This document shows positions 20,115 through 24,731 of a stretch of 64,000 nucleotides of DNA, piece after piece. Source of the stretch: Sporolactobacillus vineae DSM 21990 = SL153 (GTDB taxonomy: Bacteria > Bacillota > Bacilli > Bacillales > Sporolactobacillaceae). The stretch spans positions 186,001-250,000 of the forward strand of contig NZ_KB899043.1 of assembly GCF_000377985.1 (NCBI RefSeq), written 5' to 3'. The notes beneath the pieces were generated by a model. That model saw nothing but the letters and a program-made list of their open reading frames with translations, did not search any database and was not told where the DNA came from. Positions within the stretch are counted from its first letter, which is position 1. Each line of letters begins with the position of its first letter. Position numbers and translations under genes: made by a program.

Positions 20115-22040
20115 TTATTTAACGACCGGTTTTTTCGTGACCCGGTTTTTAATTTCCTCAAGTATCTTTGCTTTAAAATCCGCATAAGGTACCGTTTCCG
20201 TAGCCTTTTCACCGTATTTCCGGACCGTCACAGTGTGATCCTTGATCTCATTGTCACCGATAACCAGAGTATATGGAATCTTGTGTGTCTGTGCGTCGCG
20301 GATCTTGTAGCTCAGTTTCTCTTCACGTGTGTCGGCATGCGCACGGATCTGCAGCGCCTTCAGATCGCGTTCCAGGCCCTTTACATAATCCGTATGCACA
20401 TCGGCAACCGGAAGCAGTTCAGCCTGAACCGGTGCCAGCCAGGTCGGGAATGCGCCTGCGAAGTGTTCGATCAGAATGCCGATGAAGCGGTCAAGCGAAC
20501 CATAAATGGCGCGGTGCAGAACTACCGGGCGTGCCTTCTCGTTATTCTGATCGGTATAGGTCAGATCGAACTTCAGCGGCATCTGATAGTCAAGCTGGAT
20601 CGTCGCGCACTGATGGCTGCGTCCCAGCGCATCCTTAATATGGAAGTCGATCTTCGGGCCGTAGAACGCGCCGTCGCCTTCATTAATCGTGTAAGGCACG
20701 TCCATGACGCTCAGCGCATGCTTCAGTGATGCTTCCGCGGAATCCCAGAGTTCGATGCTGCCCATGTGATCCTCAGGACGGGTCGACAGCTCGACGGTAT
20801 AGGGGAAACCGAACGTGCCGTATATTTTCTTGATCAGACCGAAGATGTTCTGGATTTCGCTCTCAATCTGATCCGGACGGATGAAAATGTGTGCATCATC
20901 CTGACAGAATGTGCGGACACGGAACATGCCGTTCAGCGCACCGCTGAGTTCATGACGATGGACCTGTCCGAATTCAGCGATCCGGATCGGCAGGTCACGG
21001 TAGGAATGCAGCGTATTCTTGTAGATCAGCATGTGTCCCGGACAGTTCATCGGTTTCAGTGCATAGTTGACGTCATCCACTTTGGTAAAATACATATTTT
21101 CATGGTAATGTGCCCAGTGCCCTGAGTTTTCCCAAAGTCTCTGGTTCATAATCAGCGGCGTCCGCACTTCTTCGTAATCCGCCTGACGCTGCAGCTGGCG
21201 TGCAAAGTCCTCCAGCTCCGTCCGGATAATCATCCCGTTCGCCAGATAGAACGGCATGCCCGGTGCTTCTTCCGAGAACATGAACAGATCAAGCTGTTTG
21301 CCGATCTTCCGGTGGTCGCGTTTCGCGGCTTCATCAAGGAAATGGAGATAGTGATCCAGGTCTTTCTGGTTCAGGAAAGCCGTGCCGTAGACACGCTGCA
21401 GCATTTTATTATTGCTGTCCCCGCGCCAGTAGGCACCGGCCACGCTCATCAGCTTGAATGCCTTAATCTTGCCGGTCGACGGCAGATGCGGTCCGCGGCA
21501 GAGATCAACATAATCACCCTGCCTGTAGGTCGTGATCGTTTCTCCCTCCGGAAGTTCGCGGATCAGCTCTGTTTTCAGCGGATCATCGGCGAAGATTTCC
21601 AGTGCTTCGTCCCGGGAAACTTCCTTCCGTTCGATCGGCAGGTTTTCACTGACGATTTTCTTCATTTCCTTCTCAATCGCCGGAAAATCTTCCTTTGAAA
21701 GGGAGTGATCCATATCGACATCATAATAGAACCCGTTTTCAATGACCGGACCGATGCCAAGCTTGACATCGGGATACAGGTGTCTGAGCGCCTGCGCCAG
21801 CAAATGGGCGCAGCTGTGTCTCATCACCTTCAGACCTTCATCGGAATCCTGAGGAAGGATTTCAATGGTAGCGTCCGAAACAATTGGCCGGTCGAGATCA
21901 TAAAGATCACCATTGACTTTACCGAGAACAGCCTTTTTCTTCAGACTGTTTGAGATCGAAGCGGCAACGTCTTCCGTCGTTACCCCTGATTCGAAATTCC
22001 TGACACTCTGATCAGGAAACGTAAGATGAATCACTGACAT
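20115..22040 (-). CDS. thrS: Threonyl-tRNA synthetase
   Basis: Charges tRNA-Thr. 641 residues: TGS domain (1-65), editing domain with HSCAHLLAQAL and a second cluster near 180-190, class II core with MNCPGHMLIYKN and RIAEFGQVHRHELSG, and the anticodon-binding domain at the C-terminus (about 540-635). The ATG at 22040 has AAAGGAGTG eight bases upstream; the open frame before it is the T-box leader. The next gene, infC, has its own promoter. Confidence 0.97.
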   Translation of the reverse strand: MSVIHLTFPDQSVRNFESGVTTEDVAASISNSLKKKAVLGKVNGDLYDLDRPIVSDATIEILPQDSDEGLKVMRHSCAHLLAQALRHLYPDVKLGIGPVIENGFYYDVDMDHSLSKEDFPAIEKEMKKIVSENLPIERKEVSRDEALEIFADDPLKTELIRELPEGETITTYRQGDYVDLCRGPHLPSTGKIKAFKLMSVAGAYWRGDSNNKMLQRVYGTAFLNQKDLDHYLHFLDEAAKRDHRKIGKQLDLFMFSEEAPGMPFYLANGMIIRTELEDFARQLQRQADYEEVRTPLIMNQRLWENSGHWAHYHENMYFTKVDDVNYALKPMNCPGHMLIYKNTLHSYRDLPIRIAEFGQVHRHELSGALNGMFRVRTFCQDDAHIFIRPDQIESEIQNIFGLIKKIYGTFGFPYTVELSTRPEDHMGSIELWDSAEASLKHALSVMDVPYTINEGDGAFYGPKIDFHIKDALGRSHQCATIQLDYQMPLKFDLTYTDQNNEKARPVVLHRAIYGSLDRFIGILIEHFAGAFPTWLAPVQAELLPVADVHTDYVKGLERDLKALQIRAHADTREEKLSYKIRDAQTHKIPYTLVIGDNEIKDHTVTVRKYGEKATETVPYADFKAKILEEIKNRVTKKPVVK

Positions 22041-22113
22041 GAAAGAACACTCCTTTGTATCACAGCTTATTGACTGATTAATTCCGGTGACGGCAAAGCC
22101 CCTGTCTGGACGC

Positions 22114-22147
22114 AAAAAAACACCCGTCCCTGTAAAGGGACGAGTGT
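22114..22147 (-). terminator. T-box terminator of thrS leader
   Basis: Minus-strand hairpin ACACTCGTCCC against GGGACGGGTGT with loop TTTACA, followed by TTTTTTG. Confidence 0.9.
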
Positions 22148-22365
22148 CTGCCCGCGGTTCCACCCTTGTTCCCGCCCGGTACAAACCGGACAGCTCAAGA
22201 ATCTGATAACGGAAAATTTTTCCGCCGGCGGATACTGATTTCCCCGCCGAAGTTCGGAGGTGGTGAGCTTTTCACACCGCCGGGAACGTTGCACCTATGG
22301 TTCCCTCTCTGCAGACAGTCTTGAAAAGTCCGTGTCCTCGTCGTCACCGATCACTGATTAACTTA
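22114..22365 (-). ncRNA. T-box leader of thrS, specifier ACC (Thr)
   Basis: T-box core AGGGTGGAACCGCG at 22153-22166 on the minus strand, preceded by AACA and followed by the terminator. Stem I holds GCAGAGAGGGAACC and the specifier region AGCTCACCACCTCCGAAC, where ACC occurs at 22262-22264 and again at 22259-22261. Both are threonine codons, so the call does not depend on which one lies in the loop. Confidence 0.9.
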
Positions 22366-22371
22366 ATGTCG

Positions 22372-22400
22372 ATTATAGCCTGACCTGACTTGAAAATCAA
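22372..22400 (-). promoter_or_regulatory. thrS leader promoter
   Basis: Minus-strand -35 TTGATT (22395-22400), 17-base spacer, -10 TATAAT (22372-22377). An inverted repeat GCCTGACCT / AGGTCAGGC brackets the -35 region. Confidence 0.85.
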
Positions 22401-22420
22401 GACGCGCTAATAATTTTAGG

Positions 22421-22999
22421 TCAGGCCCTGACTTTATCCCGGTTTTCCATCAGAAAATCAAACAGCATCGCCTTGCTAACCTGATCCGCTTCGTTTTCCA
22501 GGCCGAGCTGACGGAGCAGTTCCAGACCGATCGGCAGTGTTGTGCCTGCCGCGCGCGATGTAATGATATTTCCTGAGACAACCACAGGGTCTTCCAGATA
22601 ATCCGCATCCTTGATGTGGCTGCGGAAGTCCGGATTGCTCGTCACTTTTTCACCTTTCAGAATGCCGGCACGTTCCAAAGCAATAGGCGCCGCACAGATG
22701 GCCGCGACCTTTTTCCCGTTGTCGTAATAATACCGGATCAGTTTCTGAACACGTGCATCATCTCTGAGCGTCTTCGCGCCTTTCGTCCCGCCGGGCAGAT
22801 AGATACCGTCGAAATCAGTCAGTCCGTCACTGTCAATGGTTGTATCCGCCTGCAGCGTAATGCGGTGTGATCCTTCGACCAGTTTTCCGCCGAGCGAACA
22901 GAGCACCACCTCAACACCGCCTCTGAGCAGGACATCAATCGCCGTTACTGCTTCGGTTTCTTCAAATCCGTTTGCAAGCAAGACAAGAATCCGCTTCAA
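22421..22999 (-). CDS. DJ-1/PfpI family protein
   Basis: 192 residues of the DJ-1 (ThiJ) fold. The active-site features are present: Glu14 in NGFEETEAV, the nucleophile Cys102 in AAICAAPIALE, and DGIYLPGGTKGAKTL. Relatives are described as protein or glyoxal deglycases, glyoxalases or redox-stress chaperones; the sequence does not choose between these. It stands alone on the minus strand with about 130 bases of empty DNA upstream and the thrS promoter right behind it. Confidence 0.9.
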   Translation of the reverse strand: MKRILVLLANGFEETEAVTAIDVLLRGGVEVVLCSLGGKLVEGSHRITLQADTTIDSDGLTDFDGIYLPGGTKGAKTLRDDARVQKLIRYYYDNGKKVAAICAAPIALERAGILKGEKVTSNPDFRSHIKDADYLEDPVVVSGNIITSRAAGTTLPIGLELLRQLGLENEADQVSKAMLFDFLMENRDKVRA

Positions 23000-23080
23000 G
23001 TCTGTCGCCTCCCAAGTGATTTCATCAGTCTCATCGTAACATACAGAGGAACGATTACAAAACGCACTGTCTCACCTGCT

Positions 23081-23130
23081 TTTTTAAAAAGAGGCCGGCA
23101 GCCGGCTGTTTTAGCAGCCCGCTGCCGGCC
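23081..23130 (-). terminator. Terminator after small-ORF transcript
   Basis: Very stable minus-strand hairpin, arms GGCCGGCAGCGGGCTG and CAGCCGGCTGCCGGCC with one mismatch, followed by TCTTTTTAAAAA. It immediately follows a possible 22-codon ORF. Confidence 0.88.
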
Positions 23131-23131
23131 A

Positions 23132-23200
23132 TTACCGGATCAGAAGTCCCCATTCCTGTACGTCCGTTACTGTGCATAGCGAATCTGCTTTTTTGATCAT
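23132..23200 (-). CDS. Possible 22-residue peptide
   Basis: ATG at 23200 preceded by AAAGGGGGAGTTCAAA, an excellent ribosome site, and a 22-codon frame starting MIKKADSLCTVT and ending in GLLIR before TAA. The stop abuts a strong terminator. It lies 64 bases after the YrzI-like gene, on the same strand. No family recognised; the well-spaced Shine-Dalgarno and position are the only evidence of translation. Confidence 0.35.
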   Translation of the reverse strand: MIKKADSLCTVTDVQEWGLLIR

Positions 23201-23263
23201 TTTGAACTCCCCCTTTGCCATGTATCTGGTAAGATCTGATTTTTCATTTCTATGCGCCGGAAA

Positions 23264-23416
23264 TCAGCGAATAAACCGGGAATAGTTCAGACGTCGGGTC
23301 AGCATATCATCCTGCATCGACCTGACGCGCTGCGCGTCACGATAACGGGCCGCCGTCATTTTCGCTCTCTGAACGGAAATCGTTACATTAAGCGCAAACA
23401 GGTTTAATTTCAGCAT
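23264..23416 (-). CDS. YrzI-like small protein (dual start possible)
   Basis: 50 residues starting MLKLNLFALNVTISVQRAKM and rich in Arg, ending in RRLNYSRFIR. Length, the hydrophobic first strand ending in VTI and the basic Arg/Tyr-rich tail resemble the YrzI family of small Bacillus proteins, whose function is unknown. GGGGAGGGG lies seven bases before this ATG. The same frame stays open upstream to ATG at 23500, which has its own GGGAGG eight bases before it and would give 78 residues with the N-terminus MDALMIRENSCAVG. Either or both starts may be used. Confidence 0.6.
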   Translation of the reverse strand: MLKLNLFALNVTISVQRAKMTAARYRDAQRVRSMQDDMLTRRLNYSRFIR

Positions 23417-23671
23417 CAAATCCCCTCCCCTCACAATTGGTATGGTTTCTTGATTATTTCCGACAGCGCAACTGTTTTCTCTGATCATTAATGCATCCAT
23501 CTTAACGACCTCCCACAAATCATTTATATAAAAGCGTCCCGAATCAGGAACGGCTTTATACCTGAGACCATTCGTGCGTTTCGTGTTTCTCTCTGCAATC
23601 AGTCCGAAGACGCAGAAAGGCCGTAGGGGCATCGGCATGAGACGGTTTTTCTGAAGCAAAATAGGGCACAG

Positions 23672-23700
23672 AAAAACCGCAGCCAGTGACCGGCCTGCGG
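23672..23700 (-). terminator. Terminator of the 23.8-kb small transcript
   Basis: Minus-strand hairpin CCGCAGGCC / GGCTGCGG with a short loop, followed by TTTTTC. It lies about 30 bases beyond the stop of a possible 28-codon ORF. Confidence 0.8.
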
Positions 23701-23732
23701 CAGTTAGTTGTGTTCTGATTGAAAAAAGCGGA

Positions 23733-23819
23733 TCAGTCAGCAGAGCGCTCTTGCCGAGGCCATGAAAAACGATATGCAGTTGATGATACCGTATGCGTTG
23801 TTCGTGTATTCATCATCAT
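23733..23819 (-). CDS. Possible 28-residue peptide
   Basis: Three consecutive ATG codons from 23819, with AAGGAGG ten bases upstream, open a 28-codon frame ending in QERSAD and TGA. It sits in a compact unit with a good promoter upstream and a terminator downstream, so a short RNA of about 170 bases is likely. An overlapping frame encodes a more protein-like hydrophobic stretch but has no start codon. No family recognised; the unit may be a small RNA rather than a gene. Confidence 0.3.
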   Translation of the reverse strand: MMMNTRTTHTVSSTAYRFSWPRQERSAD

Positions 23820-23859
23820 ATCGTGATGACCTCCTTAAATTTCTGCTGTTTACTTTTAC

Positions 23860-23888
23860 AGTATAAATGGAAATGATTTCTTTGTAAA
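23860..23888 (-). promoter_or_regulatory. Promoter of the small transcript near 23.8 kb
   Basis: Minus-strand -35 TTTACA (23883-23888), 17-base spacer, -10 TATACT (23860-23865), followed by AAGGAGG about 25 bases downstream. Confidence 0.75.
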
Positions 23889-23906
23889 CCCTTCCGGTGC
23901 CCATTT

Positions 23907-24731
23907 TTACGGATAGCCGGCCTGGTCCTCAGTATGAAATGATGAGGGCAGGAAGCAGACCCGGTCTTCGAAGACCTGGTGCAGCGTTCTCATAATGCTG
24001 TGCTCCGGCCGGTCGGTATGGACGATCACCTGCTGCGGAGCCAGTGCGATCAAGGTCAGTATGATCGATGGTTCCGCCTCGATCCCCCACTGTTTGAGCA
24101 GCGGGTAAAACGAACGGACGGACTGGTCATTGCGAACCGGCCGGTGCCGGTCGTCATAGAGTCTGAAGGGCTGTTCGTCGAAAACTTCAATCCGGTTGCA
24201 CAGCGGCCGGTAGCTTCTGATGATCCGCCGCAGTTTGTCGATAAACACTTGATACTCCTGTTCGAGCTTATACTCATCGATCGCAATTTCAACGAACCGG
24301 CGCAGCACATCCCGATAGGCCGTCAGCCGGAAGCGAAGAAATGACCCGTAAGTGAACGTCCGGCGCTCCTGAAAGACCTCATTCAGCGCGCCGACCATCA
24401 GTTCACGCCGGTCCGGAAGCGTCCCTGCCTGTGGCAGATCCTTTTTCTCTCCGGCAAAAATCGCCTGGACAATGCTCAGAATGGCGACCTTCTCCGCAGG
24501 ATCGGTAAAAAGGTAGTATTTCTCAATCATTTCGAGCAGCCAGTTTCGTTCGGACTGCTCGATGATGTGCCGCGCAGTCAGATTCGCCAGTTCTTTGTAG
24601 TCCTCATCGTTTTCGGAAACGATGGCCAGGCTGCTGTTGATCAGGAGGACTCCTGACGCCTGGCGGAACACCGCCGGGAGTTCTCTGTAAAGACCGGCTG
24701 CTTCCTCTCTGGTTTCAAATACGATCTCCAA
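23907..24731 (-). CDS. ytxC: YtxC family sporulation-associated protein
   Basis: 274 residues, matching the YtxC family (a putative sporulation protein of unknown activity) in context and overall features, for example a conserved central segment RTFTYGSFLRFRLTAYRDVL. TTG at 24731 is chosen because GGGGAGG lies eight bases upstream and the product then begins at EIVFETREEAAGLY. No signal peptide or membrane segment is seen. It follows dnaI as in B. subtilis, but a terminator and 380 bases separate them. A CATATAGT box upstream resembles a sigma-E -10, fitting mother-cell expression, though no convincing -35 was found. Confidence 0.85.
   Translation of the reverse strand: MEIVFETREEAAGLYRELPAVFRQASGVLLINSSLAIVSENDEDYKELANLTARHIIEQSERNWLLEMIEKYYLFTDPAEKVAILSIVQAIFAGEKKDLPQAGTLPDRRELMVGALNEVFQERRTFTYGSFLRFRLTAYRDVLRRFVEIAIDEYKLEQEYQVFIDKLRRIIRSYRPLCNRIEVFDEQPFRLYDDRHRPVRNDQSVRSFYPLLKQWGIEAEPSIILTLIALAPQQVIVHTDRPEHSIMRTLHQVFEDRVCFLPSSFHTEDQAGYP

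Follow-up and report, generated by a model that had tools for sequence, protein, structure and literature searches.

A probable ribosome-mediated transcription attenuator in the leader of the yrzI operon of Sporolactobacillus vineae

Between ytxC and a gene of the DJ-1 family, the minus strand of the Sporolactobacillus vineae DSM 21990 = SL153 chromosome carries a yrzI operon whose RNA leader, of a kind found in many spore-forming bacteria, probably acts as a ribosome-mediated transcription attenuator. The operon lies within the window analysed here, a stretch of 64,000 nucleotides (nt) corresponding to C2:186001-250000 of the 2.86-Mb genome. Read from ytxC (identified by PF08812) towards the DJ-1 gene (TIGR01383), it consists of a promoter, a 28-codon leader open reading frame (ORF), an intrinsic terminator (T1), further hairpins, yrzI, a 22-codon ORF termed ORF C, which is the positional counterpart of Bacillus subtilis S1025, and a terminator with a 16-bp stem. 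The order of these parts, the promoter, the pairings, the terminators and the open frame rest on sequence; from them we infer the switching, the readthrough and the trigger. An original prediction for this DNA had described the interval as gene-poor, with three very small ORFs in discrete transcription units that might represent sporulation micropeptides, a peptide signal or small RNAs. The promoter, small ORFs, ribosome-binding sites and terminators on which it relied were all located, on the minus strand, and the ORFs are real; what had been taken for a gene-poor stretch is actually a known, if poorly understood, tiny-protein operon, and instead of discrete units encoding three independent micropeptides there appears to be one operon, the supposed second unit having no recognisable promoter of its own.

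The comparisons drew on a genus set of 15 genomes, comprising that of the window and 14 relatives, in which the region downstream of ytxC was compared; on the same region in 11 genomes from the same family outside the genus, for which ORF listings were judged by eye; and on an order set of 397 genomes, 192 of which contained matches to PF09501, the YrzI family. ORFs led by a Shine-Dalgarno sequence were listed around 79 order-level yrzI loci, and leader ORFs were chosen by eye on the basis of their position and Shine-Dalgarno sequence. A set of 82 loci was assembled from 63 of these 79, the 15 genus loci and four of 26 named loci (Bacillus); of the 16 order loci omitted, eight resemble an included locus and eight have no clear leader ORF by eye.

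The promoter, TTTACA-17-TATACT at 23860..23888 (minus strand, as are all features described below), would by inference drive both the leader and the whole operon. By consensus alone it is unremarkable, because the scan of 22700-24200 gave one promoter-like site against 1.4 in shuffled sequences. It gains weight through its conservation ahead of the leader ORF, where a TTTAC.-type promoter is found in 76 of the 82 loci, with a spacing of 17 in 75 and 18 in one. No second promoter was recognisable for the YrzI part in the same scan, and the same region contains five terminator-like sites, at three places, compared with 1.2 +/- 1.2 in shuffles. Outside the genus the last terminator ends a median of 49 nt ahead of yrzI, and within 50 nt in 35 of 67 cases, so that there is little room for a promoter there. 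A single promoter serving leader and gene also fits the 301-nt untranslated region given for yrzI of B. licheniformis, apparently in a table of 5' untranslated regions (PMC3871023; this and the other papers cited are represented by portions of their text). In many families, though not in the genus, an inverted repeat resembling TTACCAATGTAA was seen by eye directly after the -10 box (leader -10 to +15, alignment A3), and is a possible operator.

The leader ORF (23733..23819), preceded in the window by the Shine-Dalgarno sequence AAGGAGGT, appears to be regulatory rather than peptide-coding. Towards its end the window's copy departs from the frame of neighbouring copies, for which reason it was excluded from the codon statistics; in the 14 remaining genus genomes differences by codon position are 0.45/0.43/0.43, with no synonymous bias, such that the frame fails as a peptide gene under the check for conserved frames and synonymous-site bias that had been suggested for all three small ORFs. 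Of the 82 loci, 38 carry the motif TTCG[AG]CC, which falls in frame 2 in 19 of them, in frame 1 in 14 and in frame 0 in 5, and the residues it encodes vary, being mostly YST/HST, IRP or FD. What is kept is the leader start, the Shine-Dalgarno sequence and an open frame across an RNA segment, here called segment 2: the leader ORF is open through it in 77 of 82 loci, compared with 21 when shifted by +2 and one when shifted by +1, the latter being a weak control since ATGA-type starts close that frame. Given the absence of synonymous bias and the reading of one motif in three frames, it is the RNA and not the peptide that seems to be conserved, and translation across an RNA segment is, on this evidence, what the ORF preserves. 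A further motif, CAAYTNNATAT (CAACTGCATAT at 23772..23782 in the window), was seen by eye inside the leader ORF of most aligned families (alignments A2 and A3) independently of frame; it has no part in the pairing model.

Segment 1, the Shine-Dalgarno region GGAGGTCATC of the leader ORF (23825..23834), is complementary to segment 2, CATGGCCTCGGC (23753..23764), for which complementarity tests indicate two possible partners, segment 1 and the 5' arm of T1. The helix between segments 1 and 2 is formed by GGTCGAAT with ATTCGACC in many families, by GAGGTCATC with GATGACCTC in most of the genus and by AGGCTGAA with TTCAGCCT in B. spizizenii. Set against 200 mononucleotide shuffles per locus, it reaches p<=0.05 in 55 of the 82 loci and p<=0.01 in 27. 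When 34 sequences from outside the genus were aligned, 97.4% of cells in this helix paired, three of its eight pairs being changed on both sides, and sliding the partner cut pairing to 13-54%.

T1 (23671..23701), which comprises segments 3 and 4, has a stem that aligns in 15/15 genus genomes. A scan for hairpins followed by T tracts, run without a shuffled control and including a few second hairpins that overlap the first, placed at least one terminator between the leader ORF and yrzI in 82/82 loci and two or more in 64. The pairing of segment 2 with the 5' arm and loop of T1 reaches p<=0.05 in 32 of 82 loci (median 0.09), whereas that with the second terminator does so in 5 of 64 (median 0.5), and it pairs better with T1 than with T2 in 58 of these 64. 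Similarly, in an unbiased test against the terminators of other families, segment 2 with T1 ranks <=0.05 in 17 of 82 loci (9/15 in the genus) and segment 2 with T2 in 4 of 64 (0/13 in the genus). The pairing of segment 2 with the T1 arm is strong in the window (-17.2 kcal/mol, p 0.005). In folds with a ribosome placed on the leader start, 18 of 82 loci show a fall of >0.1 in predicted T1 and none a rise of that size; with segment 2 blocked, the mean and median of T1 are as when free. At three loci T1 is 0 in every folding state, probably reflecting a misplaced hairpin. The second terminator hairpin of many relatives, T2, corresponds in the genus alignment to 23616..23651, where it is weak in the window; its 5' part there, GAAAAACCG, complements the 3' arm and U tract of T1, as seen in folds. 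More hairpins lie between the leader ORF and yrzI than the original prediction had listed, among them a third, TATAAAGC...GCTTTTATA, found by eye ahead of yrzI (23527..23560), the stem of which is recognisable in most of the genus.

The leader, yrzI and ORF C occupy the interval between ytxC and the DJ-1 gene in 15/15 genus genomes, and the array was not seen at that position in the 11 genomes of the same family; outside the genus, the region downstream of ytxC mostly continues to a T-box and thrS or to infC, and yrzI, where present, is elsewhere. A leader ORF was recognised by eye upstream of yrzI in 71 of the 79 order loci, and is 21-41 codons long in the 82-locus set. A covariance model of the promoter, Shine-Dalgarno sequence and segment 2 (R1), trained on the 34 non-genus sequences, recovered the window (33.8 bits, E 4.5e-5, 23754-23890) and each of the 14 relatives when run against 19 loci. 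Applied to whole genomes with stricter filters, it matched 225 of the 397 order genomes, usually once and twice in 15 of the 225. When 150 listed R1 matches were compared with listed yrzI positions, 105 were in genomes with a listed yrzI, and among these matches 104 lay 0-1500 nt upstream of yrzI on the same strand (median 172 nt), with one exception. The other 45 were in genomes without a listed yrzI; 19 of these and the exception were fetched, and all 20 have yrzI-family frames downstream by a custom hidden Markov model, 16 of them also having a short ORF whose end looks S1025-like by eye. Within the hits listed and fetched, the leader appears to be dedicated to yrzI.

A mechanism consistent with these features can be proposed. 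Transcription would begin from the TTTACA/TATACT promoter. Were the leader ORF freely translated, the ribosome would cover segment 2, T1 would form and transcription would stop, giving a short RNA; if it were untranslated, segment 2 would pair with the Shine-Dalgarno region and T1 would again form, with the same product. By contrast, a ribosome stalled near the leader start, owing to an antibiotic or a lack of charged tRNA, would cover segment 1, so that segment 2 could bind the 5' arm of T1 and disrupt the terminator. The 3' arm of T1 released in this way may join the 5' arm of the hairpin that follows, allowing RNA polymerase to read into yrzI and ORF C. Rae1, a ribosome-associated nuclease, would then cleave the B. 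subtilis transcript within S1025. Whether this extends to an order-wide class of ribosome-stall sensor seems evenly balanced. In such a class the peptide of the 21-41 codon leader would be irrelevant, segment 2 would be shared by the Shine-Dalgarno sequence and the first of the tandem terminators, which resemble each other, and a stall at the start would relieve both terminators in turn, switching on a toxin-antitoxin-like operon that is destroyed by Rae1, an A-site nuclease.

A number of observations count against the attenuator. The loci are related, and hence counts across the 82 are not independent. For the window alone the helix between segments 1 and 2 has p 0.06, and in most families it covers only the last Gs of the Shine-Dalgarno sequence and the spacer; when compared across families it ranks <=0.05 in 15/15 genus loci, in a test biased because segment 2 was picked as the best match to segment 1. 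The terminator counts carry the reservations given with the scan. Under equilibrium folding T1 changes by <=0.1 in 64 of 82 loci, and stands at 0.91 in all three states in the window. T2 is degenerate in the window, where the scan did not call it as a terminator, and when the window's leader is folded together with T2 the favoured states lack an intact T1, meaning that termination would have to be decided kinetically. Pairing of the T1 3' arm with the T2 5' arm ranks <=0.05 in 13 of 64 loci and is moderately specific, so the tandem-terminator cascade would have only moderate support. The whole-genome R1 search matched 7 of the 9 genus genomes drawn, and a rise in yrzI mRNA under translation stress could also reflect stabilisation.

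Other explanations account for parts of the same evidence. The leader transcript might mainly be a trans-acting or dual-function small RNA (sRNA), or a peptide mRNA with a sequestered Shine-Dalgarno sequence, and yrzI be expressed by incidental readthrough. The yrzI-yrhG RNA of B. subtilis, ncr2184/ncr60, is 234 nt long and listed as Hfq-associated (PMC3574147), a size approximately that of the leader with T1/T2 alone, and a yrzI-yrhG small-protein transcript of FZB42 was formerly called an sRNA (PMC4634765); the frame-independent CAAYTNNATAT common to the leaders would also suit such a molecule. Yet most genomes with the leader have a single match to it, and yrzI is downstream in 104/105 listed and 20/20 fetched cases, a linkage that an independent sRNA would not require; nor does this reading give a role to the preference of segment 2 for T1 over T2, making the account unlikely. 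A small RNA had rightly been among the options of the original prediction. Still less probable, and rejected here, is a functional micropeptide encoded by the leader ORF, for sporulation or signalling. It would explain why the start, Shine-Dalgarno sequence and frame are kept, and the sporulation link has some backing in that S1026, which lies upstream of yrzI in B. subtilis, shares expression cluster C2 with yrzI, cotT, yodI and ymaG (PMC3498285). The codon-position statistics, with no third-position excess, the switching of the shared motif's frame between lineages, the shifted copy in the window and lengths varying from 21 to 41 residues all speak against it.

The remaining alternative concerns the genes downstream: yrzI and ORF C/S1025 may form a peptide toxin-antitoxin pair, the mRNA of which is raised by stress only through stabilisation against Rae1, while the leader has no switching role. 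A 2025 paper reportedly names the yrzI mRNA spyTA, a name taken here from its title, which would favour such a pair. Rae1 was found in 28/28 genomes searched, and S1024, S1025, S1026 and yrzI are up in a B. subtilis rae1 mutant, in which they are candidates for direct degradation, as are bmrC and bmrD (PMC10632193). The architecture of the leader is conserved more tightly than this arrangement needs, however, and ORF C of the window does not have the Glu-Lys motif, yet the locus retains both leader and T1. We consider it improbable that stabilisation is the whole explanation; a spyTA toxin-antitoxin and the attenuator are not exclusive.

The YrzI-like call made for the largest of the three frames was correct: the 50-residue core (23264..23416) matches PF09501 at 30.0 bits against a Pfam cut-off of 23. 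It scores 16.5 bits with TIGR02413, below the NCBIfam cut-off of 47.05, and on these scores the protein is a divergent member of its family. By the frequencies of differences at the three codon positions (0.42/0.25/0.61), with their strong third-position excess, and by single-base codon differences of which 1195 are synonymous and 655 not (all pairs, 15 genomes), yrzI is clearly protein-coding. An addition to the original list is that the frame is open from an upstream ATG at 23500, giving 78 codons (23264..23500). This N-terminal extension (23500-23417), which carries its own Shine-Dalgarno sequence, is 27-31 codons long, in frame and open in 15/15 genus genomes, with differences of 0.52/0.47/0.59, a mild third-position excess, and 324 synonymous changes to 538 not; possibly two forms of YrzI are made. 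A membrane toxin was rejected because the window protein, with a net charge of +8 and a hydropathy that peaks at 0.7 over 19 residues, is unlikely to have a transmembrane segment, and none of the solved structures searched resembled YrzI credibly (best E 0.11). YrzI is small and cationic and may be the toxin half of a peptide pair, as the name spyTA suggests; Pfam labels the family 'probable sporulation'. Tandem yrzI copies occur at L150, L158, L161 and L241, as well as at L152 and L223-L226, and some tandem lineages alternate yrzI with S1025-like ORFs, which looks like joint duplication of the pair. Some members of the B. subtilis group (L173, L174, L175, L177 and L185) have a 14-codon ORF, MPRVISL...ERG, directly upstream of yrzI; it ends within the Shine-Dalgarno sequence of yrzI, making translational coupling possible.

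ORF C (23132..23200), preceded in the window by the Shine-Dalgarno sequence AAAGGGGGAG, has a counterpart in 15/15 genus genomes. The last nine codons are constrained in eight relatives, a group that does not include the window, with 23/28/86 differences at the three codon positions and 47 synonymous changes to 34 not, whereas in the same genomes the preceding codons are not constrained (102/148/127; 19 synonymous, 69 not). Short ORFs adjoining yrzI are often 17-24 codons long in the order loci, and a Shine-Dalgarno-led ORF of 14-25 codons lies <=130 nt from yrzI in 46 of 79, against 2 of 79 on the antisense strand, in a count made without hand-picking. A C-terminal Glu/Asp-Lys motif, presumed to be the Rae1 site, occurs in 2/15 genus ORF C sequences and in 23/49 peptides from elsewhere that were hand-picked, partly by the motif itself, compared with 1.1% of shuffled sequences; without hand-picking it is near the C-terminus of the short ORF in 16 of the 79 order loci. 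The 17-codon ORF of B. spizizenii TU-B-10, one of the 26 named loci, ends MEKDQV, and we take it to be S1025, which is 17 residues long. S1025 is the first characterised Rae1 substrate (PMC11780869). ORF C of the window ends DVQEWGLLIR; because it is without the motif, Rae1 control may differ in this species, although the nuclease (Rae1/YacP, PF05991) is encoded by its genome at G000:C10:13694-14188 (E 1.9e-52). An S1025-like ORF precedes yrzI at L049, L050, L052, L054, L059, L064 and some f3, f6 and f28 loci, at times overlapping another short frame by ATGA. The operon terminator (23093..23130), a partial match in the terminator scan, begins one base past the ORF C stop codon. This proximity was considered as an attenuator of the DJ-1 gene and set aside, the adjoining hairpin being present by eye in only 5/15 genus genomes.

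Rfam searches gave no match on the leader, either in the window or in 8 further loci. Across 22000-24200 they returned only the thrS T-box leader (RF00230, 98.3 bits), which lies on the minus strand at 22133-22353 with the DJ-1 gene on one side and thrS on the other, and one sub-threshold Chloroflexi-1 match overlapping the operon's final hairpin.

The yrzI operon is already known, and an attenuator in its leader is apparently unreported: none is described at yrzI in the available parts of the literature naming the gene, and since that coverage does not extend to the primary papers the term is provisional. A review table citing Hutter 2004 lists a yrzI-luciferase fusion among B. subtilis reporters that signal inhibition of protein synthesis, and has yheI in the same role (PMC7604286). 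This use agrees with the prediction of the attenuator model, which offers a mechanism for the reporter's response; no statement of how it senses such inhibition was found in the same parts of the literature. The model would also tie together an Hfq-associated small RNA, an operon degraded by Rae1 and a tiny 'probable sporulation' protein family, and the leader suggests that conservation of a small ORF can reflect its RNA and not the encoded peptide.

Among the closest known systems is S1026-yrzI-S1025 of the B. subtilis group, which has the same order of promoter, leader ORF, terminator, YrzI and short ORF as the window. The leader ORF fits S1026 because the latter sits upstream of yrzI, and B. 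spizizenii (L174) has the same promoter spacing and a T1 core of CCGCAGG...CTGCGG. The window's operon differs in its chromosomal position between ytxC and the DJ-1 gene, in the N-terminal extension of yrzI kept by its genus, in an ORF C without the EKD C-terminus and in the sequence of segments 1 and 2 (GGTCATC type). The ncr2184/ncr60 RNA fits a terminated leader in place and size; it is listed as an RNA, with no leader ORF or attenuation mentioned in the part of the source consulted (PMC3574147). In its proposed architecture, the yrzI leader resembles the bmrB leader of bmrCD, a reported ribosome-mediated transcription attenuator that is induced by translation inhibitors and likewise combines a leader ORF, alternative stem-loops and an intrinsic terminator (PMC4191407). 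The two operons also behave alike, with the mRNAs of both rising on depletion of RNase P or Z (PMC10100781) and in a whiA mutant (PMC10714963), and the second reporter gene listed above, yheI, encodes BmrC (PMC4191407). By contrast, the bmrB terminator lies inside a 53-codon leader ORF (PMC4191407), whereas at yrzI the terminators, usually two, follow an ORF of 21-41 codons, and segment 2 is predicted to pair with the Shine-Dalgarno region.

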